DNA from: Terriglobia bacterium
Lineage (GTDB): Bacteria; Acidobacteriota; Terriglobia; Acidiferrales; UBA7541
Reading direction: 5' to 3'
Length of the DNA stretch: 54,922 bases
Assembly: GCA_020072805.1 (NCBI GenBank)
Contig: JAIQGC010000012.1
Coordinates: 1 to 54,922, forward strand
The notes beneath the pieces are model-generated. The model was not told the DNA's origin, ran no database searches, and saw nothing but the letters and a program-made list of their open reading frames with translations. Of this stretch, positions 850 through 19,482 are shown piece by piece; position 1 is the stretch's first letter; every line of letters begins with the position of its first letter. A program made the position numbers and the translations under genes.

Positions 850-1872
850 CTACCGCTTTTCCCCGGTGGGGCGCACGGGGAGCAAGGCGGGCGAGGTGTA
901 GACGTTGGCGAGCACGTCACCCAGGGCCCGACCGATGTCCTGGAGTTCGCTCGCCGTCATGGCATTCTCTCTGGCGCCCAACGCCAGGGAGAACGTCGCG
1001 CCCTTGATGTTGAAGTTCCGATAGCAGTACTCCAGGAACCCCGTACCGGGGAAGAGGTGACCTCGCATCCAGGTCACCTCGGGGCGCGTCAGCTGGAGGT
1101 GGTCGGCGACGCCGTCGAACTCCACCTGCTCCGCGGGCAGGTAGAGTTCCTGCCGAAACTCGTGACGAGTGGACATCCAGCCCAGGGAGTAGAAGCGAAA
1201 GGCGAGGTCCACCGGGTGCCCGGCTGCGACCCAGTCACGTAGCGCCCCCTTGAGCCCGGCCACTTCCGGGTAGTCCTTTTCGTACGTATTGGGAAGGAAG
1301 ATCTGGGTCTCCGGCCCGGTGGGGTAGAGGAACCAGCCGCCAGCCACTGCGTCCGGGGCCAGGATGGGAACGACGTGGAGGATGAGGCTTTGCCGAAAGA
1401 GTTCCGAAGCGCTCCCTTGCCCTAATGCGAGGCGGGCAATCCCGTCAGCGGCCCAACTGGCCGGGGCCTCCCAGCCACTCTCCCGGGCGACGACCCAGAC
1501 CGAGTGACGGAAGCCTTCTTCCGGCTTCTCCAGGTCCCTGCCGATGGTGAGCCAGTGGACGGGTCGGCCACCCGCGGTCGTGGCCAGGGTGCGGACGCGC
1601 AGGTACGGGCTTTGGGCAAACTCGCTGAGCAGACCCTGGAGCGTGTCGTTAGTGTAGGGGATGCAGTAGGCCACCCAGGCTTCCTCCGCTTCAAAGCGCA
1701 CCTGGAAGGTGAAGGTCTTCGCCTGGGTGTCCACCCGCCCCGGCTCGGCGAGGAGCCACTGGGTGCGGTCATAGGAGTAGGCGGGACGGTTCCGACCGTC
1801 GTAGTAGTGGGCGGTGATGGCCGACAGGTCGCGGGTCATCGGCACCAGGAAGGTTCCCATCGACGCACACAC
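850..1872 (-). CDS. M14 carboxypeptidase-like protein with degraded active site, N-terminus cut at a junction
   Basis: The protein resembles M14 cytosolic-carboxypeptidase-like enzymes: remains of the N-terminal beta-sandwich (PAYSYDRTQW), the AYCIPYTNDTLQ segment before the catalytic domain, then VVARESGWEAPAS where active relatives read ARQHPGE-x-PAS. In that alignment the first zinc ligand His is Ser132, while the following Glu (Glu135) is kept. The later region normally carrying a DLHGH motif reads VDLAFRFYSL, and the C-terminal catalytic Glu region reads TFSLALG. It is therefore probably a non-catalytic homologue. The first five residues belong to the other side of the junction near 1850-1866; the native protein should be longer at its N-terminus. 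Probably an operon with the nitrilase-like gene that follows. Confidence 0.72.
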   Translation of the reverse strand: MCASMGTFLVPMTRDLSAITAHYYDGRNRPAYSYDRTQWLLAEPGRVDTQAKTFTFQVRFEAEEAWVAYCIPYTNDTLQGLLSEFAQSPYLRVRTLATTAGGRPVHWLTIGRDLEKPEEGFRHSVWVVARESGWEAPASWAADGIARLALGQGSASELFRQSLILHVVPILAPDAVAGGWFLYPTGPETQIFLPNTYEKDYPEVAGLKGALRDWVAAGHPVDLAFRFYSLGWMSTRHEFRQELYLPAEQVEFDGVADHLQLTRPEVTWMRGHLFPGTGFLEYCYRNFNIKGATFSLALGARENAMTASELQDIGRALGDVLANVYTSPALLPVRPTGEKR

Positions 1873-3985
1873 CGGGAAACCTTATCCTTCCGGCAAATTC
1901 ACTTCCGAGCAGATGGGCACGGCAACTTTCGAGGAAGCAATGGCGTGCTTCGCCGCGCACAAGGATTTGACGGGCATCGGCTTTCGTTTCAAGAAGTCGG
2001 ATCCCTATACCGGCGTGGACCTCGATAATTGCCGCGACCCGGAAACGGAAGACCTGCTCGACTGGGCCAAGGAAATAGTTCAGCAGTTCGGAACTTACAC
2101 GGAAGTTTCGCCGTCAGGGATGGGGGTGAAACTGATTGCGCGAGGCAAAATCCAGAAGGCGGTATCGCAGACGGACGGCGTGGAGATGTACGACCATGGA
2201 AGATTCTTCGCGCTCACCGGGCGCGGCGTGAACGGTTCGGCGATTGCGAATGCGCAGGAGCCGCTCGACTACTGGTTTGCCATGCTGACGAAGGGAGAGG
2301 ATGGGACGGAAAAAGAAAAGACAGGCAAGCATGTCGACGCAAGGCCGGGCGGTGCCAGGATTCCCAGTGGTCAGCATGACGTTTTCCTGACTCGTATTGC
2401 CGGAAAGGTCCGTCGTGATGGCCTAGAAGAAGCGGCCCTTGAAAACGCACTGATCGAGGTCTGCGAGAAGCGCTGCGAAGACTTCGGCAGTGACTATCGG
2501 GAGATGTGCAAGAAGATCGCTCGCAGCATTTCTAAATACGAGCCTGCGCCGGAGGAAATTTCGGTCGAAGCGGCAGCGGAAATATCCACCACTGGCCGAA
2601 ATATTCTGCTTACTCAGAACCTGAATGACACGGGCAATTCTGAGCGCTTACTGGCCGTTCACGGCGAAAACCTGCTCTACGTGTCGCCGTGGAAGGATTG
2701 GCTAGGCTGGGATTGGAACCGCTGGCTAAAGGACGAGAAAGACAAGATTCGCGCGCTCACTCGATACGCAATGAAACAATTTGGCAAGGAGGCTTTCGAT
2801 GCAGGCAACAGAACGCTGATTGATTTTGCGAAATACAGCTTGAACACCAAGGCGATCTCGAACGCAATCAACGAAGCACGCGATCAGCGCGCCCTGCTTC
2901 CTACGGAGTTAGATCACAACCGTGACCTCTTGAACTTCCAGAACGGGACCTTGAATCTAAGGACCGGGGAGCTGCGTCCCCATGATCGCGCCGATCACAT
3001 CACGAAACTTATTCACTGCCCGCATAACCGTGACGCGCACTGCCCCACTATCACGAAGTTCCTAATGGAGGCTGTCGGTGAAGAACAGTACAGTTTACTC
3101 CTGCGCGCACTCGGATACACCCTGACTGGACACGTTAGCGAGAAATGCATCTTCGTGTGCTGGGGGCCGACGAACACGGGCAAGACTACACTCTTGAACC
3201 TGTTGAGCGAATTTTTCTTCAAGGAATATTCCACCCTGATCATGGCCGACAGCCTGATGCAAAGCATCCGTCAGGATTCCAACACCCTTAGCGATCTTGC
3301 CGACCTTTGCGGTGCGCGCTTCGCGCAAACGAGCGAGACGCGCGAAAATCAGCGGCTGGATGAGGCCACGTTGAAACGAATCACTCCGGGTCAAGGACTA
3401 ATTCGGGCGGTCAGGAAGTATGAGTTGCCGTTCACGTTTTCACCGACGCACAAAATATGGGTCGACACCAATCACGCGATCGTGGCAACGGCAACGGGCG
3501 ATGACGTTTGGGGACGCATCATCCCGTTTGAATTTGGCCCGCGCATTCCAGACGAAAAGATCGACCGCACTCTGCCTGCAAGATTACGCGCCGAGATGGA
3601 AGGCTTTTTCGCACTCGTCTGCGAAGAGGCCAAGGCCTGGTACGAACAAGGTCTTGGCGCACTACCAGAAAAGATCATTGATACGCGCAAGAACTGGAAG
3701 AACAATGCCGACCGGGTGCGGCGATTCATCACAGAGTGCTGTGAACTGGACAAAGATCAGCTCATCAAGAACCGGGAGATTGCGCCGCGACTACTCTACC
3801 AAGGTTACAACCTGTGGGACCGAGAAGGCGGAGAACGACCCATGACAGAGACTATGTTTTTCCTGAAGCTTAAGGAAATCATGGGCGAATTCGAGATCAC
3901 TAAAGACGGTCGGGTTTATAAAGGAATTGATCTCAGCCAGGTAGCACACGCCCATGTTTTTGCGATGTCGGGGACTCGAAAATGA
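1814..3985 (+). CDS. Phage-type primase-polymerase/SF3 helicase replication protein, 5' truncated
   Basis: A two-module replication initiator of the phage/plasmid kind. The N-terminal part (RKVPIDAHTGK, GIGFRFKK, TGVDLDNCRD, TEVSPSGMGVKL, VEMYDHGRFFALTG) matches the primase-polymerase-like module, with the acidic D-x-D in GVDLD. The C-terminal part is a D5/SF3 helicase: Walker A GPTNTGKTT, the acidic segment around FAQTSETRENQRLDE, and a sensor-like WVDTNHAIVATATGDDVWGR. Native sequence begins only near 1850; the first dozen codons are antisense to the M14-like gene, so the real N-terminus is missing. It would unwind and prime DNA for autonomous replication of the element. Composition is less GC-rich than the segment to its left. 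Confidence 0.85.
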   Translation: MMADRSRVIGTRKVPIDAHTGKPYPSGKFTSEQMGTATFEEAMACFAAHKDLTGIGFRFKKSDPYTGVDLDNCRDPETEDLLDWAKEIVQQFGTYTEVSPSGMGVKLIARGKIQKAVSQTDGVEMYDHGRFFALTGRGVNGSAIANAQEPLDYWFAMLTKGEDGTEKEKTGKHVDARPGGARIPSGQHDVFLTRIAGKVRRDGLEEAALENALIEVCEKRCEDFGSDYREMCKKIARSISKYEPAPEEISVEAAAEISTTGRNILLTQNLNDTGNSERLLAVHGENLLYVSPWKDWLGWDWNRWLKDEKDKIRALTRYAMKQFGKEAFDAGNRTLIDFAKYSLNTKAISNAINEARDQRALLPTELDHNRDLLNFQNGTLNLRTGELRPHDRADHITKLIHCPHNRDAHCPTITKFLMEAVGEEQYSLLLRALGYTLTGHVSEKCIFVCWGPTNTGKTTLLNLLSEFFFKEYSTLIMADSLMQSIRQDSNTLSDLADLCGARFAQTSETRENQRLDEATLKRITPGQGLIRAVRKYELPFTFSPTHKIWVDTNHAIVATATGDDVWGRIIPFEFGPRIPDEKIDRTLPARLRAEMEGFFALVCEEAKAWYEQGLGALPEKIIDTRKNWKNNADRVRRFITECCELDKDQLIKNREIAPRLLYQGYNLWDREGGERPMTETMFFLKLKEIMGEFEITKDGRVYKGIDLSQVAHAHVFAMSGTRK

Positions 3986-4080
3986 ACGTGCGTTTGAGCA
4001 GTGGTTCTACAGGGTCTACAGGGTTTGTAGTCGATTCCGAGAAGTTCTCCAAGGGGACTTCCTAAGGGAGGTTCTTAGAA

Positions 4081-4266
4081 ATGAGTGTAAACCCTGTAAA
4101 CCCCGTACGAGAGCGAGCTAAGTTGTTGAAAATACGCGAGGGCAATATTCACAGCGAGCGCAATAGCACGTGTCTTTCAGCGTTTGGCGAGGTACAGACG
4201 CGACTAGGTCGCTCTACACGTCGGGAATGGTGGCCGTACGAGCGTCTGAGAGGAGATCGAGCCTGA
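4081..4266 (+). CDS. Small phage-element protein, unknown function
   Basis: A 61-residue frame beginning MSVNPVNPVRERAKLL, preceded by GGGAGG 9 bases before the ATG. Just upstream (about 4008-4035) the bases ctacagggt are repeated in tandem, and the start of the gene carries the complementary motif (gtaaaccctgtaaaccc), so this spot may be a binding site or control region at the end of the replication gene. The frame ends in TGA at 4264-4266, overlapping the proposed CTG start of the next gene. No domain recognised; support is the ribosome binding site and the tight spacing. Confidence 0.4.
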   Translation: MSVNPVNPVRERAKLLKIREGNIHSERNSTCLSAFGEVQTRLGRSTRREWWPYERLRGDRA

Positions 4267-4505
4267 CTAAAACATCATTCCGTACCTGGCTGAGCGCGCA
4301 GGTAGGCCGCGCGGATACTGCCGGGGACTTTGCGCGGGATGTGGCAGCGGACGTGGACGCTCCAGCAGGTGGCTATGAGGCGTGGCTACGATACTTGCGG
4401 GGCCAGAGCGCGCCAGACCCCGCGATCGATGCATTCAACACAGCGTGGCTTGAGTGGGTGGGGAGCATAGAGAAAGAAGAGGCCGCAAATGATTTGTCAG
4501 CCTGA
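4263..4505 (+). CDS. YozE-like SAM-fold small protein, copy 1
   Basis: About 80 residues: an SFRTWLSAQ opening followed by DTAGDFARDVAADVDAP, EAWLRYL and a C-terminal helix. This matches the small YozE-like family (F-x-x-W-L, then G-D-L/F-A-x-D-V, then a W-x-x-x-L helix). A paralogue with the same blocks is at 7520-7741. Function of the family is unknown. The start is uncertain: a CTG at 4263 overlaps the previous stop (CTGA) and sits 6 bases after GAGGAGAT, which puts the domain at the N-terminus as in the paralogue. Upstream in-frame ATGs at 4227 or 4170 would add residues with no resemblance to the paralogue. Confidence 0.6.
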   Translation: MTKTSFRTWLSAQVGRADTAGDFARDVAADVDAPAGGYEAWLRYLRGQSAPDPAIDAFNTAWLEWVGSIEKEEAANDLSA

Positions 4506-4629
4506 TGCGATTGTGGGGGATACCACGTCGAAATCGTCATCGCCTTCACCCAGGAAAACGGCGGGGCAGTGTCCTATGTGTTTCGCGCAACTTGGTTTAA
4601 AACAGAATTTTGTTTTTCGGAGAATGTGA
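4489..4629 (+). CDS. Very small cysteine-containing protein, unknown
   Basis: A 46-codon frame (MICQPDAIVG..., CPMCFAQL near the C-terminus) starting inside the end of the YozE-like gene and stopping one base before the next ATG. An AGAAGAGG stretch lies about 6 bases before its start. The CPMC pair plus an early Cys could form part of a zinc site. It fills the gap in an otherwise gapless gene chain, which is the main reason to call it. No family recognised; could be chance. Confidence 0.35.
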   Translation: MICQPDAIVGDTTSKSSSPSPRKTAGQCPMCFAQLGLKQNFVFRRM

Positions 4630-4986
4630 ATGAAAAAATCTAAGACGGACCCACTGCTGACCCCACCCCGACATCTGTCTGAGTACATGCGTACGTGGGT
4701 CGCACTCATCTGCGATAAGTATGAAATCGCCGAACAGCACTTCACAGTCCTCGTGCTCGCCGCAGAAGCTTGGGATCGCTGTGAGGCCGCCCGCAAGGTG
4801 CTTTCGAAACGGGGGGTTTCGTATCGCGACAGGTTCGGCGCGCCACGGGCTCGGCCTGAGTGCGCTATCGAAAGAGATTCACGCATTGCGTTTGTGAGAT
4901 GCCTTCGCGAACTTGCGCTGGAAAATGAAATGCCCGTCGACAAACCGTCGCCGAGAGCTGCACCGGTTCTTCCAAAGAAAGGATAA
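4630..4986 (+). CDS. P27-like phage terminase small subunit
   Basis: 118 residues with the P27-family layout: PPRHLSEYMRTWVALICDKY, then VLAAEAWDRCEAARKVLSKRG, VSYRDRFGAPRARPE and a final ERDSRIAFVRCLRELAL helix. Small terminases recognise the packaging site on phage DNA and hand it to the large ATPase subunit. No large terminase is seen in the element, which suggests either decay or reliance on a helper phage's motor. The gene lies in a tight same-strand run with the capsid gene. Identification rests on motif spacing, not a search. Confidence 0.68.
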   Translation: MKKSKTDPLLTPPRHLSEYMRTWVALICDKYEIAEQHFTVLVLAAEAWDRCEAARKVLSKRGVSYRDRFGAPRARPECAIERDSRIAFVRCLRELALENEMPVDKPSPRAAPVLPKKG

Positions 4987-4991
4987 AACCC

Positions 4992-5426
4992 ATGACTGTA
5001 AAAAATCGCATTTCGCTAAAGGCTAGCAAACGGTCGAGACTCACGCCCGGACTCTTGTTCTGCTTCGTGACCGACGCCGATTTAATGGGCGAACTAGGGA
5101 CCGGACTCAGCGACGAAGAAATCGCCGCGAAGCTCGGCGAGCTTTGGAAAGTCTTTGGCGACGAAGCGCTGAAGATTTTCATCGTGGAGCATCCGGGCGA
5201 AAGACCTTCGACGTGGTGGCGCTGCTCTTCGCCGGAACCACGCCCGGAAATCGATTGGCGCGGGGGGTCACCCGGCGGAGATCCATACGCCGCCGACCGC
5301 GCGTTGAAGCGCGCGCAGGAGATCGACATTCTATTTCGGCACCAATTGCTGACAGCCGCTGAACGGCGCTTGCTCGCCGAAGAAGACCCGGCGCACATGG
5401 GCTTTCTTGGCGGGGAGAAGGAATAA
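4992..5426 (+). CDS. Phage-element protein of unknown function
   Basis: 144 residues. A short helical segment GLSDEEIAAKLGELWKVFGDEALKIF is followed by IVEHPGERPSTWWRCSSPEPRPE and a C-terminal helical stretch rich in Arg and Glu (LKRAQEIDILFRHQLLTAAERRLL). The pattern of a PGxRPxxWW box directly after a terminase small subunit recalls small phage proteins seen beside packaging genes, but I cannot name the family. It starts 5 bases after the terminase gene and ends exactly where the next ATG begins, so it is almost certainly translated as part of the operon. Confidence 0.6.
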   Translation: MTVKNRISLKASKRSRLTPGLLFCFVTDADLMGELGTGLSDEEIAAKLGELWKVFGDEALKIFIVEHPGERPSTWWRCSSPEPRPEIDWRGGSPGGDPYAADRALKRAQEIDILFRHQLLTAAERRLLAEEDPAHMGFLGGEKE

Positions 5427-5708
5427 ATGCCGCCCTCTGCGCTGCGGCCCGCCAAGAAGAAGAAAGAAAGACACCCCTATCCGTGCCCTTACAAAAAGTG
5501 CAACAGCAACGACACGGATGTTCTGCACACATACCCGCGTTGGAGACGCTCTCAGTACACGAAGCGACGTCATCTCTGCAACGCGTGCGGCCGGCGATTC
5601 AACACGCTTCAGCTCGAAGAAGGCTCGTGGCGCGCACTCGTGGAACTGACACGCCCCGGTAACTCTGCTACTGGTAGCAGAGTCGATGGACTCGCAGAAC
5701 GAAAGTAA
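5427..5708 (+). CDS. Zinc-ribbon phage protein, Ogr/NrdR-like
   Basis: 93 residues with a basic N-terminus and a four-cysteine ribbon: CPYKKCNSND...T then RRHLCNACGRRFNTLQLEE. The C-x4-C spacing with a Thr-rich link and a CNACGRRF-T knuckle recalls small phage zinc-ribbon proteins (Ogr/Delta transcription activators) and the NrdR N-terminal ribbon. It starts on the base after the preceding stop codon. A role in activating late genes is only a suggestion from the fold and position. The 3' end (ACTCTGCTACTGGTAGCAGAGT, 5662-5683) is a perfect short inverted repeat inside the coding region. Confidence 0.6.
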   Translation: MPPSALRPAKKKKERHPYPCPYKKCNSNDTDVLHTYPRWRRSQYTKRRHLCNACGRRFNTLQLEEGSWRALVELTRPGNSATGSRVDGLAERK

Positions 5709-5725
5709 GAGAAAGTGAGTATGCG

Positions 5726-6022
5726 ATGAAGAAATTCCTTCGAGTAAGAATGCAGGTGAGCATAGCGAGCGCGGCGTTCAGCTTCCAGCCGGGCGAAGTT
5801 ACCGATGTCGAAGAAGACTTGGCGCAGAAGTGGGTCGCGGTCGGTCATGCTGTTCGAGTTTCGCCGCAGACGCCGCTCTCGCTGCGGGATTTCGATTACC
5901 GCGATCTTGACGCCGAAGAAGCTCTGACTCGTCGCTGCGTTCACTGCGACCGGCGCGCGCAATTCGTTCTGCGGAACAAACCCTTTTGCCCGGCTTGCTA
6001 CCAGGCGGAACTGGAGACCTAA
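5726..6022 (+). CDS. Small phage protein with C-terminal CxxC zinc knuckle
   Basis: 98 residues. The N-terminal half (FSFQPGEVTDVEEDLAQKWVAVGHAV) resembles short phage structural or connector-associated proteins with a PGE-V and terminal GxA motif. The C-terminal half has a zinc site, CVHCDRRAQFVLRNKPFCPACY. The stop codon is one base before the capsid start, so the two are probably translationally linked. The function is not known; a scaffold or head-assembly helper is possible from position alone. Confidence 0.58.
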   Translation: MKKFLRVRMQVSIASAAFSFQPGEVTDVEEDLAQKWVAVGHAVRVSPQTPLSLRDFDYRDLDAEEALTRRCVHCDRRAQFVLRNKPFCPACYQAELET

Positions 6023-6023
6023 G

Positions 6024-7241
6024 ATGAGAATCAGAGTGCGGTATTTGGATGAAGGACAGGCCGAGATAACCGTCATTGAGGCAGGCAGCGCAGACGAGCG
6101 GAGCTTCTTCGACAAGTTCATGCTCGATTACGCTGCGTCGAAGCTCAGAGATGGTGCGAGCCACCGCAACACGCCCGAGATGTGCGCCGAAGTGCGCAGC
6201 TTGCCTGAGCTGTGCGTCGAAGCGCGCAACTCACCGGTCCTGCCCGCCGCGAGCGTGCGCAAGTCACTGCCCGCGACCGCCGACGAGCGCAGGGCGCGGA
6301 TCACTGCATACGAACGGGAAGCCGAAGCTCCCCGCGAAGAGAACTTCCGCGCCTTCCTGCTCTACGGAAAGGACGGCCTCGACGAGCGCGCGCAGGGCGA
6401 GGGAACGGGCGGTACTGGCGGCTACATCGTGCCGCAGTCGTTCGCCAGGCAATTCCTCGCGAGCCTCAAGGCGCACGACGGGTTGTTTGACGCCGCGACG
6501 GTCGTCGTGACGGACAGCGGCGCGGAGTTTCCGATGCCCGTCGACGACGACACCGGGAACGTCGCAGCCGTAGTGGCAGAGTCTGGCGCGAGCACGCCGC
6601 AGGACGCCAGTTTCGATGTGGTGGCGTTCGGGAAGTCCCCACAGTGGCGGTCGAAAATAGTGCGGGCGAGCATGGAGGTCGTGGGCGACGCGGGGTTCAA
6701 CTTCCAGGCGCTGCTCGCTGGCTGTTTTGCTCGCAGATTCGCGCGCGGCATCGGCGCGGCGTTCATCGCCACTTTGCTCGGCGCGGCGACGCTCGGGAAA
6801 ACTGCGACCTCGGCGACGGTGATTACTGCCGACGAACTTCTCGACCTGGTGGCGAGCGTGGACAGCGCCTACGCGCAGAACGGCGGCTGGCTCATGACCT
6901 TTGCGACGTTCACGACGTTGCGAAAACTGAAGGGAAGCACGTCTGGCGATTTTCTCCTGCCCATCGGAAGAAACGCCGAAGGCAGGCCAACGCTTTTCGA
7001 CATGCCGGTCTTCTTGAGCCCGTCGATGCCTGCGATGACGACGACTCTGAAGCCGATCCTGTTCGGCGATCTCAGCCGGTTCCTGCGCCGCGAGGTCCGC
7101 AACTCGTTGGTCACGAGGACCTATGTCGAGCGCTTTGCCGAGTACGGGCAAGTTGGTTATGAGGGTTTCTGGCGCGTCGATGGCGCGCTCGCGAAGGCGT
7201 CATCCGCGCCCGTGCCGGTCAAGTATCTGCAGATGGCCTAA
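6024..7241 (+). CDS. HK97-fold phage major capsid protein
   Basis: 405 residues. The N-terminal ~100 are charged and helical, like a delta/scaffold domain; the shell domain then begins around GTGGTGGYIVPQSFARQFL. Typical blocks follow: FPMPVDDDTGNVAAVVAE, ASTPQDASFDVVAFGKSP, WRSKIVRASMEVVGDAGFNFQALLAGCFARRFARGIGAAFI, and the late TFTTLRKLKG, MPVFLSPSMP and FGDLSRFLRREVRNSLVTRTY stretches. It forms the icosahedral head shell. No prohead protease or portal gene is adjacent, which is unusual for a complete phage; the N-terminal domain may act as a built-in scaffold. One of the best supported calls in the element. Confidence 0.85.
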   Translation: MRIRVRYLDEGQAEITVIEAGSADERSFFDKFMLDYAASKLRDGASHRNTPEMCAEVRSLPELCVEARNSPVLPAASVRKSLPATADERRARITAYEREAEAPREENFRAFLLYGKDGLDERAQGEGTGGTGGYIVPQSFARQFLASLKAHDGLFDAATVVVTDSGAEFPMPVDDDTGNVAAVVAESGASTPQDASFDVVAFGKSPQWRSKIVRASMEVVGDAGFNFQALLAGCFARRFARGIGAAFIATLLGAATLGKTATSATVITADELLDLVASVDSAYAQNGGWLMTFATFTTLRKLKGSTSGDFLLPIGRNAEGRPTLFDMPVFLSPSMPAMTTTLKPILFGDLSRFLRREVRNSLVTRTYVERFAEYGQVGYEGFWRVDGALAKASSAPVPVKYLQMA

Positions 7242-7349
7242 CGGGTTCCCGGCTCGCGCGCCTTCATCCGCGCGGGCGGCGGGTCGAGACGGCACGGGGC
7301 GCGCGGCCACCTTTACCACACCCTGCCGCCGCCGAAGGGAGGCACCACC

Positions 7350-7520
7350 GTGACCCTGCGCGTTGTCCACATCGTGACCGGTGATGGCGTCGAGCACGTG
7401 TTCGCGTTCCTCGTCGAGGATGCCGCGGCTCTCGCCGCGAAAGAGTCCGCGGAGCGCGAGACGGTTTTCGCGTTTCAAGTCGGCAGTTGCGCTGCGCCGC
7501 CGGAAGATCGTCCTGTGTGA
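7350..7520 (+). CDS. Very small protein translationally coupled to the second YozE-like gene
   Basis: A 56-codon frame from a GTG at 7350 (MTLRVVHIVTGDGVEHVFAF...), preceded by GGGAGG with 7 bases of spacing. The TGA stop overlaps the ATG of the following gene by one base (TGATG), a standard coupling arrangement. The stretch between the capsid stop and this start (7242-7349) has no gene. Sequence is a short beta/alpha pattern of no recognised family. Confidence 0.5.
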   Translation: MTLRVVHIVTGDGVEHVFAFLVEDAAALAAKESAERETVFAFQVGSCAAPPEDRPV

Positions 7521-7741
7521 TGGACTTCTCGCAGTGGCTTATCGAAAAGAAACTGCGAAGTCGAGGTCCGGTCGGCGATCTCGCGCGCGACGTTGCCGCC
7601 GATGAGGACGTGCCGGACGTTGCGAACACGCACGAGGCATGGCGCGCGCACCTGCAAGCTGCGCCAGAGAACGTCTTGGAAGTCTTCGAGGCGGCATGGC
7701 AGGCGTATGAAGCAGCAGTGAAGCGGAAAGCCTGTCAGTAG
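7520..7741 (+). CDS. YozE-like SAM-fold small protein, copy 2
   Basis: 73 residues, MDFSQWLIEKKLRSRGPVGDLARDVAADEDVP then HEAWRAHL and a final helix. It is a clear relative of copy 1 at 4263-4505: both have F-x-x-W-L near the start, the D-F/L-A-R-D-V-A-A-D box, a proline, a W-x-x-x-L and a closing A-W helix. The start at 7520 is chosen because it overlaps the previous stop and gives the domain at the very N-terminus. Family function unknown. Two copies bracketing the packaging/capsid genes is notable. Confidence 0.65.
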   Translation: MDFSQWLIEKKLRSRGPVGDLARDVAADEDVPDVANTHEAWRAHLQAAPENVLEVFEAAWQAYEAAVKRKACQ

Positions 7742-7744
7742 TCA

Positions 7745-7764
7745 GGCAGCCCGAGAGGGCTGCC
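7745..7764 (+). terminator. Hairpin closing the capsid operon
   Basis: GGCAGCCC-GAGA-GGGCTGCC, a perfect 8-bp stem with a 4-base loop just after the stop at 7741, followed by a pyrimidine-rich cccctccctt. It lacks a strong U run, so efficiency is unsure, but the position right before a new promoter supports a transcription end. Confidence 0.5.
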
Positions 7765-7784
7765 CCTCCCTTATACTCATACGC

Positions 7785-7814
7785 TAGACAGCTCATATAC
7801 TTATGTGCTAGAAT
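7785..7814 (+). promoter_or_regulatory. Sigma-70-like promoter for the 7833 small-gene pair
   Basis: TAGACA at 7785-7790 and TAGAAT at 7809-7814 with an 18-base spacer. The RBS GGAGG (7822-7826) and the ATG at 7833 follow at sensible distances. The motif gctaga occurs at both boxes, so a repressor could also bind here. Confidence 0.45.
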
Positions 7815-7832
7815 GCTTACTGGAGGTGTTCT

Positions 7833-8078
7833 ATGAGCAGCAAGAGACAGTTGGTTCCGGTGAGCGAGCGTGCAATCGTTCAGCGTTTGAATCGCGCGAT
7901 GGGCAAGGAAGGTTTGCGACTGAAGAAGGCGCGGAGCACGCAGACGGAGACGAGCGTCGGCGAGTGGTACGTCATCGACATCACTCGAAACTTCGTGGCG
8001 CAGCAGGATGTTGATCTTGCCAAGCTGGCGAAGAAATGGAAAGTGCTTGCGGCATGGGAAACGGTCGGTGACTTATGA
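7833..8078 (+). CDS. Small conserved-looking protein of mobile elements, unknown
   Basis: 81 residues: MSSKRQLVPVSERAIVQRLNRAM, a basic stretch with LKKARS, then GEWYVIDITRNFVAQQDVDLAKLAKKWKVLAAWE. The layout (short helix-rich N-terminus, YVID strand, closing VDL-xx-L helix and W-E) recalls small hypothetical proteins seen on phages and plasmids, but I cannot name one. Strong RBS GGAGG and its own promoter. Its stop overlaps the next ATG (ATGA). Confidence 0.6.
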   Translation: MSSKRQLVPVSERAIVQRLNRAMGKEGLRLKKARSTQTETSVGEWYVIDITRNFVAQQDVDLAKLAKKWKVLAAWETVGDL

Positions 8079-8173
8079 AAAAGCAGCCGAAGATCCAGAC
8101 GGTGAAGGTTACTGTGATTAAAGAGCAGCCCAAGGCGCGGACGATCATTGTCCACGTCCGTAAAACTCTCTAG
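8075..8173 (+). CDS. 32-residue basic peptide, coupled to upstream gene
   Basis: ATG at 8075 overlaps the previous stop by four bases (ATGA). The product is 32 residues, Lys/Val-rich (MKKQPKIQTVKVTVIKEQP...IIVHVRKTL), alternating hydrophobic and basic as in a beta hairpin. No family recognised; called on the overlap and the clean frame. Confidence 0.38.
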   Translation: MKKQPKIQTVKVTVIKEQPKARTIIVHVRKTL

Positions 8174-8264
8174 AAGTGTTCGTTTCGCGCGTTAGCGCGC
8201 TCGACGCGCGACGATCTCAGCGCGTCTTGAGTCAAAAGAGCATGTTTGCTGCACTCGGCAGGAC

Positions 8265-9215
8265 TTACTTCTTTGCCTTGTGGCACTCAATCAGGAACAC
8301 GATATTCGAGGCCACCAGATGCAGCGCGTACGCGGCGAAGTGCAGCGGGATTTCTACCGGCGTCACACCTTGCCCATGGCGGCTCGTGCGATTGGCAAGG
8401 GTCGGAAGCCCGGATTCCATTGCGGAACGCAGTCCGCCAAAGTGGGTCTCCAATTCAGGGGGCACAAGCCCGTTCGTGAACAGAATGTCCATCAGCGGTT
8501 TGGCAGTATCCTTCGGCCCATATGACCACTTCCGCATGGTGCAGATCGACTTCATCGTGCTCTCAAATGCCTTCAAGGCTTCCGCGATAGCTTGCTTGTT
8601 GTCGCCCTTACGATGATGGTCGAACGCGCGCATGAACTCATCAGCTGGGCCGCTGAACCCTGTCTCGTTCAACAGGGCAAGCGCGGGCTTCACTGCCTCC
8701 GCATGTAGAAACTGCGAGTCAACGCGGATGATGTCACCGCTGATGTACTGGTATCCAATTCCATGCTCACGAAAGCGAACGTTTAGATCCTCGATTGCCT
8801 CATTAGCACTCAGTTTGATGCACGCTTCCTGTTGCTGATACGGATTAAAGTCGCGGGCAAATCGGTCGATTACTTTAAAAGACAGCTCGATGATGTCAAG
8901 CGTCCCATCTGTATCCGCGGTCATTAGGTATTGAATGCAGCGTTCCTCCGGGTCGCTGTCGGACTGACCGATCGCCCACAACCCCTTCTCCTCGGCCATT
9001 GTTTTCTGAATCAACTCCCACAACTCAGATGCCGGAGACGCCTCTCCGTGGGTATAGTAGCCGGTAGGGCGGAACCAACGACCAAGAGCGGCGCGCCAAA
9101 TGTGAGCAACTTGAATCTTGAATGGCTGAGGGATCGCGTCGTATTGATACACATCGGGTTTGCCCTGCGACTCCTGCCGCTTCTTGCGCTTCGAGAAGAG
9201 ATCAAAGATTGCCAT
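8265..9215 (-). CDS. AbiJ-N4/HEPN-like abortive-infection family protein
   Basis: 316 residues. The opening MAIFDLFSKRKKR...PDVYQYDAIPQPFKIQVAHIWRAALG matches proteins carrying the AbiJ N-terminal domain 4 (the STM4504/CBY_0614 group). The C-terminal half is helical and HEPN-like, with DEFMRAFDHHRKGDNKQAIAEALKAFESTMK and the motif ANRTSRHGQG, similar to the Arg-x(n)-His site of HEPN RNases. Such proteins act in abortive infection, probably by cutting RNA. It is transcribed against the capsid operon and is the last gene before tRNA-Val, a usual position for defence cargo on phage satellites. Family call fairly good; antiviral role inferred. Confidence 0.68.
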   Translation of the reverse strand: MAIFDLFSKRKKRQESQGKPDVYQYDAIPQPFKIQVAHIWRAALGRWFRPTGYYTHGEASPASELWELIQKTMAEEKGLWAIGQSDSDPEERCIQYLMTADTDGTLDIIELSFKVIDRFARDFNPYQQQEACIKLSANEAIEDLNVRFREHGIGYQYISGDIIRVDSQFLHAEAVKPALALLNETGFSGPADEFMRAFDHHRKGDNKQAIAEALKAFESTMKSICTMRKWSYGPKDTAKPLMDILFTNGLVPPELETHFGGLRSAMESGLPTLANRTSRHGQGVTPVEIPLHFAAYALHLVASNIVFLIECHKAKK

Positions 9216-9400
9216 TGAAAGTTATACTCGCCTCCAGTGTAACAGCAATACACCGCGCGTCGGCCCGCACACTGTGGATAAGCAGGTGGTCACACCAGTG
9301 GCTACCTCGCTGGAAGTAGCTACCGAGCTTAAACCAGCCTTAAACCGAAACCCGGCGCGTCGCCCTCGGACTCTTAAAAACTGCTGTTTTATTGGGTATT
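9216..9400. other. Gene-free edge of the phage-like element beside tRNA-Val
   Basis: No gene. It holds the upstream region of the AbiJ-like gene, short repeats (ggctacctcg / gtagctaccgag at about 9299-9328 and a twice-occurring ttaaacc at 9330-9346), and runs to the CCA end of tRNA-Val. If the element integrated at this tRNA, the attachment core should be at about 9401-9425. No second copy of that core is seen in the window. Confidence 0.35.
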
Positions 9401-9477
9401 TGGTGGGCAGTGCAGGGCTCGAACCTGCGACCTCCTGCTTGTAAGGCAGGCGCTCTAACCAACTGAGCTAACCGCCC
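9401..9477 (-). tRNA. tRNA-Val (anticodon UAC)
   Basis: Read on the minus strand: GGGCGGT acceptor pairing with ACTGCCC (one G-U), D arm GCTCAGTTGGTTAGAGC, anticodon arm CCTGC-CTTACAA-GCAGG with anticodon TAC, and T arm GCAGG-TTCGAGC-CCTGC, ending in an encoded CCA. The 3' end faces the phage-like element, so this tRNA is the likely integration site of that element. Confidence 0.93.
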
Positions 9478-12162: not shown

Positions 12163-12237
12163 AGGGGCGTAGCTCAGTGGTAGAGCAGCGGCCTTTTAAG
12201 CCGAAGGTCGTGGGTTCAATCCCCACCGCCCCTACCA
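12163..12237 (+). tRNA. tRNA-Lys (anticodon UUU)
   Basis: Acceptor AGGGGCG pairs with CGCCCCT, D arm GCTCAGTGGTAGAGC, anticodon loop CTTTTAA (anticodon TTT), T arm GTGGG-TTCAATC-CCCAC, encoded CCA at 12235-12237. The last 23 bases are duplicated at 19460-19482, making this gene the attachment site of the island that starts immediately downstream. Confidence 0.94.
12215..12237. repeat. attL core, 3' end of tRNA-Lys
   Basis: 23 bases running from the T loop to the CCA of tRNA-Lys (starting ttcaatcccc, ending ccctacca). The identical 23-mer is at 19460-19482 in the same orientation. The flanking bases differ on both sides, giving a clean core typical of tyrosine-recombinase integration into a tRNA gene. 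Confidence 0.88.
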
Positions 12238-12260
12238 GCAACTTGTTTTCTTAGAACAAC

Positions 12261-13463
12261 TTAGTTTACGGGCACAGTCGTTGAATTGTTGATATCAACA
12301 ATTGGAATCAACAGTTCAGGCCGGGCAATCTTCTGCGCCAGCGCGGCGACTGCGTTTCTTTGGCTATCCCCAACAACATGACCATAGCGGCCTAGCGTGA
12401 TTCTTGCGTCCGAGTGCCGCATCTGCGCTTGGACAACGGTGAGAGGTGCCCCGCTATCGATTAGCTCAGACGCGACGCCGTGGCGTATTGCGTGGAAGCC
12501 ACAGCGAGGAATCTTCAGCGTATCGAGGATTGGGTGCAGTTTTTTCTCCCGAAGTTTATTCGCAGAATACGGTTTGCCATTCCGATTGCAGAACAGCAAC
12601 CCGGTTTCATTCTGCCGCCATTTGCTGACCAGGAAGTCCTTCAGCCGAGATTCGAGCGCCGCAGGCATGGGCAAGTCTGCAATGCTTGCTCTACTTTTCG
12701 TAGTTTGCAGAATGCCCATGTAGACCGAGCGTCGAATTTGAATCACTCGTTTCCGGAAGTCCAGGTCAGACACCAACAATCCAAGCGCCTCCCCGATCCT
12801 CAGCCCGGTCATCGATAGCACCGTGAGCAAGGTGGCAAACGGTTCGTCCGCCGCCTCGATCACTTGTTGCATCTGATCTGCACTGAGGAATGGAGACTCC
12901 TTTGAGATAGCCACTCGGGGAAGCGCCAAATCCGACATCGACACTTCGGGGGCAGAATATCCCCAGGAGCGTGCAGTCCGCAAAACGGATGAGAGAGTCA
13001 AAAGGATGTTCTCAATCGTCTTGCGCGTACGTTCCCCAACCGAAAGGTCTGTAGCAAAGGATTGAAGGGTCTTCGTGCCTAATTCGGTGAGTCGCTTTTG
13101 TCCAAGCCGAGGCAGAATGTGGTGCCGTATATGAGATTCAGCGGCCCGCATAGTGCTCGGTTTCAGACTTCCGGCGATGTGCTTTCGCCACTCTTTGATG
13201 ACTTCGTCCACGGTCCGACCCACTTTAGGAGTGGCTGGGACAAAGGCGTTGACACCGTCGAGGTACGGCTGGAATGCAGCCAATGCAGCGCGGTGCGACA
13301 TCTGTGCGATGTCACCGAGAGTTATGCCGCGTTGCATTCGTTTTATCATCCCATCCGACTGGCGAACATCCTGGCGGAACAAGCCAACCCACTTTTCACC
13401 GCGTTTGACAAGACAACCTCTTTGGAACCGTCTTTGTGGCACAGTACGTCTCCCTGTGCTCAT
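12261..13463 (-). CDS. Tyrosine-recombinase integrase of the island
   Basis: 400 residues from the ATG at 13463 (MSTGRRTVPQRRFQRGCLVKRG). An N-terminal AP2-like/arm-binding segment (VKRGEKWVGLF-RQDV), a core-binding SAM-like domain (about 85-165) and a catalytic domain follow. Catalytic residues are placed at Arg222 (MTGLRIGEAL), His324 and Arg327 (FHAIRHG), His350 (QMRHSD) and Tyr360 (LGRYGH). It sits right next to attL with its 3' end toward the tRNA, as in most tRNA islands, and should carry out integration and excision. In-frame codons upstream to 13601 are unlikely to be used. Confidence 0.88.
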   Translation of the reverse strand: MSTGRRTVPQRRFQRGCLVKRGEKWVGLFRQDVRQSDGMIKRMQRGITLGDIAQMSHRAALAAFQPYLDGVNAFVPATPKVGRTVDEVIKEWRKHIAGSLKPSTMRAAESHIRHHILPRLGQKRLTELGTKTLQSFATDLSVGERTRKTIENILLTLSSVLRTARSWGYSAPEVSMSDLALPRVAISKESPFLSADQMQQVIEAADEPFATLLTVLSMTGLRIGEALGLLVSDLDFRKRVIQIRRSVYMGILQTTKSRASIADLPMPAALESRLKDFLVSKWRQNETGLLFCNRNGKPYSANKLREKKLHPILDTLKIPRCGFHAIRHGVASELIDSGAPLTVVQAQMRHSDARITLGRYGHVVGDSQRNAVAALAQKIARPELLIPIVDINNSTTVPVN

Positions 13464-13921
13464 CGCTGACGGCGTTGCTGACGCGAACTGTAGCACACCG
13501 TCCGTTGGCAGGGAACCAACGGTCTGGTGCTGTTCGTGAGCGGTTTCCCGCGCCTCAGCAACCTGGAAAGAAACACGGCAGGACATGCTAAAGCGCCCCA
13601 TCTTTCCAGATCGGGAGCGCTGCCCTCAATAGGGCGATTGGGCATGCATCTCCGAGGGCTTTTTGGAAAGGCGGGGACTCAAAATAGCTGAGCATTTCGA
13701 CCCCGAAGGGCTTCAAATCCTCGACAGCCTCAAAGCGTTCGTTCGTCGGATGCTCTGCCGCCTCATGGAGCGCGCCCAGGCCGATATAACGCAGCTTTAG
13801 TTCAGTTCGGGGCTCATCGCGGCCTCCAAAGCAGTCATATTGGGGGTCATATTGTTTATTTCTATAACGTTTCGGCAAGCGAGCGTGGGGGACGCAGCCG
13901 CTAACGTTTGGGAGGGCGGCG
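13464..13921. other. Region between integrase and RIT element, with a minus-strand relic frame
   Basis: No intact gene. On the minus strand from about 13803 to 13588 an open frame reads ELKLRYIGLGALHEAAEHPTNE..., which looks like genuine protein but has no start of its own. Its upstream part may lie beyond the RIT element, where minus-strand bases before 16850 read LRVLKRQELKL in the matching frame. This suggests a small gene cut by the RIT insertion. The RIT operon's promoter should lie in 13804-13921. Confidence 0.4.
13792..13803. repeat. Direct repeat cagctttagttc, left of the RIT element
   Basis: A 12-base sequence found again in the same orientation at 16839-16850. The two copies enclose the three recombinase genes and the terminal palindrome and lie about 3.05 kb apart. 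They may be the target/attachment duplication of the RIT element. Confidence 0.5.
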
Positions 13922-14860
13922 ATGAGGAGATGGGACCGGTTACTGGACTCGTATATCGAAGAATACCGCGCGAGGGGAGTCAGTCCACAGTCGGTGGCGT
14001 ACACCGAGGCACGGCTGAACCGGTGGGGACGATGGCTCAAAGGGCGTCGCCCACGCATTGGGATCGAGCGCATTGATGCCGAGATGATCACGCGCTACAT
14101 GGCGAACTGCTCGAGTTTTCGCGCCAAGGCGACAGTGTACGCGACGCTGAGCACGATGCGGGGCTTCGGTGACTACCTGGTGCGCTTGGGTCTGTGGAAG
14201 ATCAACCCGTTGCGCTGGATGAAAGGCCCGAAGGTCACACCCTACAGTCGCCTACCGAAACGCATCGATCACGCCCACATGGAAGCGATGTGGCGCGAAG
14301 CGGCGAATCGCCACGGCGGATACACTTCCCATTTGTGGGTAACGGTGCTGGCGATGCTGTACGGCACCGGTCTTCGCCGCGGCGAGCTAGAGCGGCTGAA
14401 CCTCGATGCGTTTGATCGCACGGAAGGAACCTTGCGCATCGATGGTCGCAAGACGGGACAGGAGCGCTGTGTGCCGTTACCTGAGATGGTGCTGCGGTGT
14501 CTCGAAGCGTATCTGCCACTTCGCCACAACCAGCTGGAAGAAGCAGGATTATGTGGCGAGTGCGCCCTGTTGGTGAGCCGCAGTGGCAAGCGTCTCATGG
14601 GGGGTGCGATCAGCAATGGTATCCACGCTATCTCGCGCCGCGCGCAAGTGCCGATCCATAGTCTGCATCAGTTTCGGCATAGCTGTGCGTCAGATCTGCT
14701 GGAGTCTGGCGTGCACCTGGCCCAGGTGCAACGCATCCTGGGACATTGCGGTATAGGGACCACCGTGCGTTATGTGCACATCGCCGATCCGCAGCGTCGT
14801 GCCGCGATGACCCTCCATCCCATCAACGATTGGTTGCCCCAACAGAAGGTGATCGCATGA
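13922..14860 (+). CDS. RIT recombinase 1 (tyrosine recombinase)
   Basis: 312 residues. The N-terminal core-binding domain covers about 1-105 (MRRWDRLLDSYIEEYRARGVSPQS). The catalytic domain has Arg152 (GTGLRRGEL), His249 and Arg252 (LHQFRHSCA), His275 (ILGHCG) and Tyr284 (TVRYVH). All catalytic positions are present. First gene of the trio; its stop overlaps the ATG of the second gene. In RIT elements the three products are thought to act together in strand exchange, but the mechanism is not established. Confidence 0.85.
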   Translation: MRRWDRLLDSYIEEYRARGVSPQSVAYTEARLNRWGRWLKGRRPRIGIERIDAEMITRYMANCSSFRAKATVYATLSTMRGFGDYLVRLGLWKINPLRWMKGPKVTPYSRLPKRIDHAHMEAMWREAANRHGGYTSHLWVTVLAMLYGTGLRRGELERLNLDAFDRTEGTLRIDGRKTGQERCVPLPEMVLRCLEAYLPLRHNQLEEAGLCGECALLVSRSGKRLMGGAISNGIHAISRRAQVPIHSLHQFRHSCASDLLESGVHLAQVQRILGHCGIGTTVRYVHIADPQRRAAMTLHPINDWLPQQKVIA

Positions 14861-15765
14861 AGAAAACGAATACAGCCACGATGGATCCGTTAATCGAGGG
14901 ATACTTCAGTTACCTGGATAAAGTTGGACGCAAGACGCCACGCACAGTTGTGGACGTGCGTTGCACGCTGCGCCGTGCGATTGCTCGGCTTGAACGAGTG
15001 CGTCCCGGCGTTGAGCTGTGGCACCTCAAATTGGAAGATTATTTACATTGGCTTGAGGCCGAGCGGCAGTGTGGTTGCACCGAAAGCAGCCTGGCGAAGT
15101 ATCTCAGCCACGTGCGAGGACTGCTTGAATACGCCTGGCGTAGTGGCCGCGCCGAGCGCAACGTGCTCGATGGATTTAGTTTGCAGCATACGGTCCGGCG
15201 TACGGTGCCGAAGTCGCTCAACTTGGACGAAGCCGAGCGACTGGTGCAAGCCACAACCGCACCCGGGCCTGCCGCACGGCGTGACCGACTGATCATTTTG
15301 CTCCTTTATGGTTGTGGGCTGCGTACCAACGAGTTGTGCACGCTCGATGTTGCGCAGGTCAATCGTGAGCGCCGTGAACTTGTGGTCCTAAGGGCGAAGG
15401 GCGATCGACCGCGCGCGATTCCGATCCCTGAAGCACTCTATACAGAGCTGCTCGCCTATCTGCTGGAGCACGGAAAACGCGGACCACTATTTCGAACCAG
15501 CACTCGTAAACGACGCCTGCGGGCCGGCGATGTGTGCGAGGTTGTGACAGCTGCCGCGACGCGCGCTGGTCTACGCGCCGGCGTCACGCCCCGCACGCTC
15601 CGGCACAGTTTCGCGACTCACTTGATGGACCGTGGCGTCGATCTCGCCATTATTGCCTCACTGATGGGGCATCGCAGTCCGCAGGAGACCGGTGTCTACC
15701 TACATGTCTTGCCCGAGCGGCCACAAGCCGCTGTTCGTACCTTGCCGATCGGAGGCCGCTCATGA
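14857..15765 (+). CDS. RIT recombinase 2 (tyrosine recombinase, atypical box II)
   Basis: 302 residues from the ATG at 14857, which overlaps the previous stop by four bases (ATGA). Catalytic positions: Arg156 (GCGLRTNEL), Arg249 (TPRTLRHSFAT), His272 (MGHRSP), Tyr281 (GVYLHV). The usual His three residues before Arg249 is Arg246, a replacement worth noting. The C-terminus ends with IGGRS-stop overlapping the third gene. The three proteins clearly differ from each other and are not recent duplicates. Confidence 0.85.
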   Translation: MKKTNTATMDPLIEGYFSYLDKVGRKTPRTVVDVRCTLRRAIARLERVRPGVELWHLKLEDYLHWLEAERQCGCTESSLAKYLSHVRGLLEYAWRSGRAERNVLDGFSLQHTVRRTVPKSLNLDEAERLVQATTAPGPAARRDRLIILLLYGCGLRTNELCTLDVAQVNRERRELVVLRAKGDRPRAIPIPEALYTELLAYLLEHGKRGPLFRTSTRKRRLRAGDVCEVVTAAATRAGLRAGVTPRTLRHSFATHLMDRGVDLAIIASLMGHRSPQETGVYLHVLPERPQAAVRTLPIGGRS

Positions 15766-16736
15766 AATGGTCATTCTGGATCGAACTCTACATTCGGACC
15801 CACTGCGTTGCACGTGGTTTACGTCCGCTCACACTCGCCGCCTATGAGGACGCACTGAAACAGTTCCATGAATGGGTGCGCGTCACGCGGGCGGATATCG
15901 CACCGGATCGGGTTACTGCGCGCGATGTGCTCGCCTATCTGCAGTATTTGCGCGATGTGCGTGGTAACGGGGCTTCTGCCGTGAACCGTGCCGTTGTTGT
16001 TCTGCGGCGGTTCTATTGCGCGATGGTGGCCATGGGATATCTCGATCACACTGCTAACCCGCTTATCGGCTTCCCGTCGATCAAGGCAGCGCCGCGCAAG
16101 CTACCTGTCGCGCTCTCTTCAGAGCAGGTCAGTCGATTGCTGGCTGAGCCCGAAGTCGACACGGTGATCGGTCTACGGGATCGGGCGTTGCTCGCATTGC
16201 TTTACGGTACCGGTATCCGCGCTTCCGAGTGTGCTTCGCTTCGCAATGGTCAAGTAGATTTGGCCCAACTGACGATCACTGTCCAAGGCAAAGGCGGCCA
16301 CGAGCGCGTCATCCCACTGAACCCGCAACTCGCTGAGGTGTTGCATATCTATGAGCAAGCCCGCGGTCCCGCGGTCCCCACCGCGCCATTTTTCCGATCA
16401 CGCTTCGGGCGCCTATTGTCCCGCGGCAGCGTCTACGAACGCGTACGCACGTGGGGGCAGCGCAGCCGCGTCGGTTTTCCGCTCTCACCGCACCGGATGC
16501 GGCACACATTTGCAACCCACTTGGCGCGCGCCGGGGTTGGCCTAGTGACGATCCGCGATCTGCTCGGTCATCGGCTGATCACGAGCACGCAGATCTATTT
16601 GCATGTCACCGCGGACGATCTTCGCGCGGCTGCTGCGCGTCACCCGATCAGCTCACTGCTCAACACCGTCAAGCATCTGATTGCTGGTGGACCACTGCCA
16701 TTCCAGAAGCCGCACGCAATTTTTGGAAGCGGATAG
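15762..16736 (+). CDS. RIT recombinase 3 (tyrosine recombinase)
   Basis: 324 residues from the ATG at 15762, again an ATGA overlap with the previous stop. Catalytic residues: Arg153 (GTGIRASEC), His244 and Arg247 (LSPHRMRHTFAT), His270 (LLGHRL) and Tyr279 (QIYLHV). Closest in pattern to XerC/XerD-type enzymes. The final codons and the TAG stop (16734-16736) lie inside the left arm of a 36-bp palindrome, so the last residues FGSG are encoded by the palindrome itself. Confidence 0.85.
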   Translation: MKWSFWIELYIRTHCVARGLRPLTLAAYEDALKQFHEWVRVTRADIAPDRVTARDVLAYLQYLRDVRGNGASAVNRAVVVLRRFYCAMVAMGYLDHTANPLIGFPSIKAAPRKLPVALSSEQVSRLLAEPEVDTVIGLRDRALLALLYGTGIRASECASLRNGQVDLAQLTITVQGKGGHERVIPLNPQLAEVLHIYEQARGPAVPTAPFFRSRFGRLLSRGSVYERVRTWGQRSRVGFPLSPHRMRHTFATHLARAGVGLVTIRDLLGHRLITSTQIYLHVTADDLRAAAARHPISSLLNTVKHLIAGGPLPFQKPHAIFGSG

Positions 16737-16756
16737 CTAGCTATCCGCTTCCAAAA
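16721..16756. repeat. 36-bp perfect palindrome at the 3' end of the RIT operon
   Basis: Two 18-base arms with no loop (right arm agctatccgcttccaaaa), centred at 16738/16739, fully complementary. It overlaps the end of the third recombinase gene. It could be a transcription end, a recombinase binding site or part of the element's terminus. A weaker related string, ttttggaaaggcgg, occurs at 13661-13674 on the other side of the trio. Confidence 0.8.
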
Positions 16757-16838
16757 CCGTTCACAACAAGCCTTCTCAAGCACACCAAGAGTTTGGTGAT
16801 GGATCGCTCTGTCCAGGCGTCTGCTTGTACACAAAAGA

Positions 16839-16850
16839 CAGCTTTAGTTC
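16839..16850. repeat. Direct repeat cagctttagttc, right of the RIT element
   Basis: Second copy of the 12-mer at 13792-13803, same orientation. Between the palindrome and this repeat lie about 80 bases without a gene. Confidence 0.5.
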
Positions 16851-16952
16851 TTGGCGCTTGAGCACTCTGAGAGTAGTATCGGTGCCGGTGCACACCTTGC
16901 GCGGGGGGCTGACAGAGCTTGTCGAACTCGTACAACGAGCGAGGACTGCGCC

Positions 16953-18746: not shown

Positions 18747-18754
18747 GGACAGAC

Positions 18755-19459: not shown

Positions 19460-19482
19460 TTCAATCCCCACCGCCCCTACCA
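19460..19482. repeat. attR core of the tRNA-Lys island
   Basis: Exact copy of 12215-12237, without the rest of a tRNA in front of it, so it is not a tRNA gene but the displaced 3' end. It marks the right border of the island. Confidence 0.88.

Follow-up and report, generated by a model that had tools for sequence, protein, structure and literature searches.

The stretch analysed here (the window) is the entire contig C66, 54,922 bases long, of an Acidobacteriota soil bacterium's metagenome-assembled genome (MAG) of 3.98 Mb in 157 contigs, which is rated 99.77% complete and was compared with its genus in a set of 36 genomes, this MAG included. On the 3' side of a tRNA-Val (TAC) gene at 9401-9477 (minus strand), the apparent integration site, lie all those genes of a capsid-encoding element that the window holds. 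The initial annotation had described an element with a replication protein, a small terminase (TerS), an HK97 capsid, two YozE-like genes, zinc ribbons and a defence gene, and with no portal, protease, large terminase (TerL) or tail. Our searches bear out the absences and all of these genes except TerS, for which the match is weak. The left end of the element appears to lie on a second contig of the same MAG, C148. Numbers with L and G below denote loci and genomes of the comparison sets.

We conclude that position 1850, taken earlier for the left border of the element, is an assembly break, because the primase gene lacks its start there, an adjacent M14-like gene seems cut, and the G+C content jumps. 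Matches of the primase to PHROG profiles begin only at profile positions 34-35, so that its N-terminus is absent in the window. The M14-like gene (850-1872, on the strand opposite to the primase) has a weak M14_N match (E 0.009) that starts from position 68 of 107, and its protein is unmatched in the rest of the genus (35 genomes). The G+C content of bases 1-1850, 66.3%, is higher than that of each of 48 equally long segments from position 9401 onward (mean 59.7, standard deviation 3.0, highest value 65.8). On these grounds bases 1-1850, with the M14-like gene and a nitrilase-like gene (CN_hydrolase match), were rejected as a part of the element, to which they were probably joined by mis-assembly into a chimeric contig.

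The 3' end of the tRNA-Val gene has a single near-exact second copy in the MAG, at C148:16062-16109 (98% over 48 bases), while the six other matches reach 74-85%. The resulting attachment (att) repeat comprises 45 identical bases, attL at C148:16062-16106 and attR at 9401-9445 of the window, the latter being the 3' 45 bases of the tRNA gene. To the right of attL, and all on the plus strand, follow a tyrosine integrase gene (C148:16244-17509; Phage_integrase 7.7e-26), an HTH_17 helix-turn-helix (HTH) gene (C148:17898-18215), which we read as an AlpA-like regulator, and the 29 N-terminal residues of a primase (C148:18212-18300), whose ATG overlaps the HTH stop codon and which runs to the end of the contig. 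In alignment, this primase start corresponds to residues 3-17 of its phi105 counterpart. Against four primase N-termini of 190 residues it gave blastp E-values of 2.7e-7, 5.4e-7 and 7.8e-4 and no match with the fourth; 0, 0, 0 and 21 of 300 shuffled versions, respectively, scored as well. The primase of the window resumes at a conserved KVP, with about 12-14 residues absent between the contigs and the exact junction within the gene uncertain by about 15 bases. The element would thus continue on C148:16062-18300, which places its missing left end and gives it a length of about 9.9 kb (2,239 bases on C148, about 40 missing bases, and 1850-9445 of the window).

Joined in this way, the element would read attL, integrase, HTH gene, primase, iterons, YozE1, TerS-like gene, p144, zinc ribbon, p98, capsid, YozE2, p81, AbiJ-like gene and attR. 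The integrase and HTH genes and the open reading frames (ORFs) from 1814 to 8078 all lie on the plus strand and form a rightward series; the AbiJ-like gene alone lies on the minus strand. The primase with its superfamily 3-type helicase (ORF 1814-3985, of which 1850-3985 belongs to the element) matches D5_N at 5.9e-28 and PHROG primases at 3.3e-108. The HK97-fold major capsid protein (6024-7241; PF05065 6.1e-41) has a helical N-terminal region. The AbiJ-like gene, a putative defence gene that adjoins attR (8265-9215), matches AbiJ_NTD4 (1.4e-18), DUF7014 (2.8e-30) and PADLOC PDC-S32 (4.2e-7), and is 38% identical to a gene in a Zymomonas record; a search with it as the query gave one match, of 46 residues. 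The P27-type TerS-like protein (4630-4986) scores 20.9 bits against PF05119, below the cut-off of 24.7, and E 0.005 against PHROG. Our own profile, made from 16 sequences, reaches it at E 0.0024 in a search of the ORFs of 13 sources, and no phage match was found for it by tblastn. The two YozE_SAM_like proteins (4170-4505, Pfam 3.5e-7; 7487-7741, Pfam 1.2e-7 and phrog_8600 7.9e-11) align with each other. The remaining small genes encode p144 (144 aa, 4992-5426), without a Pfam, PHROG or phage match; an NrdR-like zinc ribbon (5427-5708; Pfam 4.8e-6, 26.9 bits with a cut-off of 27.2); p98 (98 aa, 5726-6022), with CxxC pairs at the C-terminus of its translation; and p81 (81 aa, 7833-8078), with a weak PHROG match (E 0.018) and none in Pfam. 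p98 resembles small proteins that adjoin phage capsid genes, matching ORFs that immediately follow the capsid gene in L042, L056 and L082 (phmmer E 1.6e-4 to 4.7e-4). A possible 56-aa ORF lies at 7350-7520. Single-protein searches gave no match for the capsid in genome and viral contigs, nor for the primase and integrase in viral contigs.

No portal, TerL, protease or tail family was detected among the 10 main ORFs of the window (E limits of 0.01 for Pfam and 0.05 for PHROG), which are the ORFs that the scan covered, the 56-aa ORF and shorter ones lying outside it, and none was detected on the C148 side of the element either. As far as the MAG allows, what lies just across the junction is the primase start, the HTH gene, the integrase and attL, and not portal, TerL or tail genes, which supports the helper-dependent satellite that had been suggested.

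Just 3' of the primase, at 4005-4110, lie two inverted pairs of TACAGGGT-like repeats. The facing sets (4005-4026 and 4089-4110) are complementary at 18 of 22 positions, a value that no other of 595 segments of the contig and none of 1000 shuffles matched. The number of repeated 8-mers was not significant, the observed 4 being reached by 15 of 200 shuffles and 126 of 296 contig segments. The stretch between the sets is modestly richer in AT (48% G+C, versus 57% for 1851-9400). Because the origins of phage-inducible chromosomal islands (PICIs) lie 3' of the primase or rep gene, with iterons in two sets on either side of an AT-rich region (PMC6092414), and the repeats agree with these in site and in having two sets, we interpret 4005-4110 as a putative replication origin.

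An AlphaFold2 model of the capsid protein, built from an alignment of 34 capsids from this analysis, has the HK97 fold, with a mean predicted local distance difference test (pLDDT) score of 82.4 and values below 50 at residues 1-20, 47-50 and 69-75. We read its largely helical N-terminal 118 residues as a delta domain; no protease gene that would cut this predicted domain was detected in the element. By both sequence and fold the best match of known structure is the capsid of the Rhodobacter gene transfer agent RcGTA (6tba/6tb9; Foldseek 3.6e-15 for 6tb9), with HK97 next, and the matches include the capsid of EcCI2, a capsid-forming PICI (cfPICI; 9gyi, 1.4e-10). In a tree of 15 satellite, 10 undecided and 23 portal-bearing phage capsids, with a midpoint root for drawing only, the capsid of the window falls in a set of six (100/99) together with L031, L006, L007, L008 and L117, and with none of the 23 portal-bearing phage rows. 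A second set consists of 14 rows that are satellite or undecided only (98/93); as the phage rows were collected with the first capsid group as the query, their absence from this second group is partly due to sampling. The rows L107, L113, L105 and L102 are long and their placement is unsure. A loop deletion considered as peculiar to satellite capsids was dropped, since the short loop form is also usual in phage rows.

Similar capsid genes recur in the genus and the class. Capsids matching PF05065 occur at nine places in eight of the 36 genomes of the genus, whereas the portal family PF04860 and the TerL family PF03354 were found in none of these genomes. The portal search works elsewhere: PF04860 is present in 62 of 250 genomes of the class, and among virus records that have a related capsid (50 of 55 loci covered), 37 of 50 show a portal. 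In the class sample, 49 capsid places were located in 44 of the 250 genomes, with PF04860 within 10 kb at 14 of the 49 and at 0 of 13 in the family of the window. One member of the genus, G007, carries at L026 what looks like a full prophage with another type of portal and TerL, two ORFs of which we take to be these proteins, and L119 and L120 also look like prophages with another portal/TerL type.

We examined 29 of the 35 capsid places that have no PF04860 nearby, namely the window, eight loci of the genus and 20 further loci; G236, G280, G278, G233:C39, G135:C44 and G197 lie outside these. The 20 further loci were chosen for having no PF04860, so that the absence of this family there holds by construction, while the absence of TerL does not. 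An integrase was found by profile within 20 kb in 16 of them, L026-type matches in two, and a tRNA gene in 14. In 11 of the 14 tRNA-bearing loci the end of the tRNA gene is repeated (21-62 bases), with the repeats bracketing the capsid gene. Besides the element of the window, 14 att-bounded elements with a capsid gene were found, three in the genus (L028, L006 and L008, the att repeat of L006 being 16 bases) and 11 elsewhere in the class. They span 8,269 to 16,326 bases, and 11 of the 14 measure 8.3-10.4 kb. Capsid-bearing elements of this sort are apparently common in the class.

A survey of the 900 ORFs of at least 60 aa in these 14 elements and that of the window detected an integrase in 15 of 15 (that of L113 as a 136-aa ORF), and a capsid by profile in 14, with the capsid of L104 found by PF05065. 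A D5-type primase was detected in four, TerS in three (that of the window falling below the threshold of E 1e-3) and a prohead protease in three. Profiles of two portal types matched in none of the 15 elements. The statement that no sister element has TerL failed at L118, where a divergent large terminase (7218-8726) was found by PHROG (2.6e-20) in a 12.4-kb capsid element at tRNA-Leu that has no detected portal. This protein has no Pfam match and reaches only E 1e-4 with our own profile, which indicates that TerL can be missed. The ORF set A3 comprised 150 of 156 ORFs, and family comparisons covered the 25 commonest of 52 and of 139 families, outside which a rare portal or TerL family could be hidden. 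Other replication-type proteins in the elements are VapE-like (L108), Prim-Pol (L110 and L112), AAA_25 (L114 and L006) and G2P-like Rep (L028). The IMG/VR fragment L072 has the same core set and order, with a primase, two small genes, a P27-type TerS, the capsid and an Xis-like gene.

The layout of the element, described at first as unrecognised, is close to that of Gram-negative PICIs such as EcCICFT073 and PmCI172 once the left end is added, though this does not account for the two YozE genes and p144. As described in PMC6092414, these islands have a terminal integrase gene, an alpA- or merR-type regulator, rightward transcription, and, behind the primase gene, an origin made up of two sets of iterons; they sometimes carry terS and a capsid homologue, and phage-resistance or other accessory genes. 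The element shares with them an integrase at one end beside a specific att site (C148:16244-17509 and the 45-bp repeat) and the rightward transcription. The likeness is one of layout and not of direct gene comparison, and there are differences: those islands measure about 15 kb and occur in Gammaproteobacteria, whereas the element is about 9.9 kb long, lies in an acidobacterial genome and has two YozE-like genes. PICIs lack phage structural and lytic genes, though some have homologues of capsid-morphogenesis genes, and here the capsid is the only structural gene detected. PICIs are further marked by att sites that no prophage of the species uses, by orthologues of PICI-specific genes, and by induction by, and interference with, a helper phage. 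Among other islands, the cos-type Staphylococcus aureus pathogenicity island SaPIbov5 likewise encodes a lone HK97-fold capsid homologue, Ccm, with no protease identified in the accounts cited (PMC8569155, PMC5052747). Ccm occupies the pentamers and turns the helper capsid small and isometric, and cannot form such capsids alone (PMC8569155, PMC5052747). SaPIbov5 differs in its Bacillota host, and in the present element a TerS-like gene is also found; the two are likened here by description.

PICIs with a lone capsid homologue, such as SaPIbov5 and PmCI172, are a better comparison than cfPICIs. The latter are also satellites that encode their own major capsid protein, of which their shell is built, and capsid-forming satellites had been proposed at the outset as the likeness; in the cfPICI sense this did not hold, since cfPICIs carry capsid, protease, portal, connectors, both terminase subunits and HNH (PMC10690885), whereas only a capsid and a TerS-like gene are found here. 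Membership was rejected for want of such a complete head module. Nor does the element answer to a temperate phage or prophage, as no portal, TerL or tail gene was detected in it. The Streptomyces phage satellites MulchRoom and MiniFlayer also have capsid genes; they differ in having TerL, portal and scaffold genes and virulent helpers, with no obvious replicase according to PMC10690885, whereas the element has a primase and neither TerL nor portal. Tycheposons and VEIMEs are satellite-like elements from marine bacteria (PMC11389934).

From these analyses we consider it quite probable that the element is an integrated phage satellite whose layout comes near that of Gram-negative PICIs. This reading is supported by the exact att repeat with its integrase, the series of HTH gene, primase, iterons and capsid, the defence-type gene and the absence of any detected head-completion gene, as well as by the recurrence of 14 sister elements and a capsid set free of portal-bearing phages. 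In such a satellite, a helper phage would trigger the HTH regulator, the integrase would excise a circle, and the primase would replicate it from 4005-4110. The TerS-like protein would steer the large terminase of the helper to satellite DNA, while the capsid protein would either join helper head assembly, as Ccm does, or build its own small shell on a helper portal; the particle would be finished with the protease and tail of the helper. The probable role of the AbiJ-like gene is to protect the host from rival phages. Retention of a protease in some sister elements speaks for an own shell there; for the element of the window, which has no detected protease gene, it could be either an own shell or a redirected helper shell.

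Several points weigh against this reading. The TerS match is weak, the weakest of the named genes, and the HTH_17 match lies under the Pfam cut-off (23.8 versus 27 bits). EcCICFT073 is a PICI that has a capsid homologue and yet packages DNA of phage size (PMC6092414), so that small heads do not necessarily follow from a capsid gene. Searches with PF04860 and PF03354 revealed no helper prophage in the MAG, nor any helper among the 36 genomes of the genus. The link between C148 and C66 rests on the att repeat and the primase, not on reads, and synteny gives no confirmation, with nine C148 proteins unmatched in the tRNA-Val regions of seven congeners. A tRNA-Asp gene on C148 sits 10.7 kb left of attL, while in four of the seven congeners it stands beside tRNA-Val. 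Common to the tRNA-Val regions of the congeners are the tRNA gene and two small genes on its right, presumably of the DUF507 family.

The foremost alternative, which overlaps with the preferred one in that it also supposes a satellite, is a reduced cfPICI, in which a full head module lost its portal and TerL while the capsid still builds its own shell. We regard this as improbable. Relatives of the second capsid group in IMG/VR mostly have a portal (67 of 80) and TerL (46 of 80), on short records with a cfPICI-like arrangement, and among the elements without a portal some have retained a prohead protease (L104, L110 and L008), an S49 peptidase (L102) or TerL (L118). The capsid of the window, however, belongs to another tree group, of which no full-head satellite was found, and no protease was detected in the element. 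An example from the second group is L133 (IMG/VR 3300012038_000241; 10,512 bases, terminal repeat of 123 bases), which by profile has integrase, TerL, capsid, portal and protease and looks like a complete small cfPICI-like genome. L124, L174 and L176 (9.8, 6.5 and 6.6 kb, with exact terminal repeats) have a capsid and neither portal nor TerL detected, with a TerL profile of our own that misses some. In L176 (IMG/VR 3300002053_000889; 104-base terminal repeat), the order is a 445-aa protein without a Pfam or PHROG match, a TerS-like protein, an S78 protease and the capsid, and no integrase was detected.

Slightly less probable still is a remnant prophage that lost its portal, TerL, protease and tail and persists in the course of decay or for its defence gene. 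HK97 phages with a related capsid normally carry a portal, as in the 37 of 50 virus records above, and broken capsid copies, with a stop inside the match, occur at G030:C88, G233:C39 and G135:C44. At L027 lies an ORF without a Pfam match that may be tape-measure-like. Against decay, the element has kept together, within 9.9 kb, its att ends, an origin-like site and intact frames of the integrase, HTH gene, primase (across the gap) and capsid; most of the other att-bounded elements share a narrow size range, and its capsid belongs to a set without portal-bearing phage rows. That the assembly hides a head module between C148 and C66, which do not overlap, or elsewhere in the MAG is very improbable, given that the primase alignment leaves just about 12-14 residues between the contigs and that PF04860 and PF03354 are unmatched in a MAG of such rated completeness.

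More broadly, the arguments seem to us evenly poised as to whether the class commonly harbours satellites of an undescribed kind. Mostly 8-10 kb long, these would encode an integrase, a replicase and a major capsid protein, at times with TerS or a prohead protease, and would rely on phages for portal, motor and tail. Such satellites would stand between PICIs and cfPICIs and comprise at least two capsid lineages, with no prophage supplier carrying PF04860 or PF03354 found in the genus of the window. The satellite families in the literature are chiefly those of Gammaproteobacteria, Bacillota, Streptomyces and marine bacteria (in part after PMC11389934). A search of open-access papers, with subscription papers and preprints outside its scope, found none that brings together phage satellites, Acidobacteriota and capsids. 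If confirmed, a portal-less, capsid-bearing type that recurs in a phylum dominant in soil would extend the known host range of satellites, supply many natural sequences for asking how a lone capsid protein changes the helper head, and point to unseen helper phages in soil.

Some further observations concern the cargo and borders of these elements. L104 carries, at 5719-8625, an MmeI-type restriction-modification gene in a capsid element at tRNA-Asn; an FRG-domain gene is present in L108, and HEPN_AbiU2 finds a match in one ORF of the element set. Defence-type cargo may therefore be usual in such elements. At L028, an exact repeat of 201 bases (6307-6507 and 16026-16226) flanks the capsid element of G023 and includes part of tRNA-Arg; longer than the other repeats seen, it may be more than an att core. 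The window itself holds a second small integrated element at 12163-19482, between a tRNA-Lys gene (12163-12237) and a 23-base repeat of the tRNA end (19460-19482), in which the capsid search of the genus found no capsid. Beside this tRNA gene lies an integrase-like ORF (12261-13601), for which the L008 and L006 capsid elements have matching integrases.

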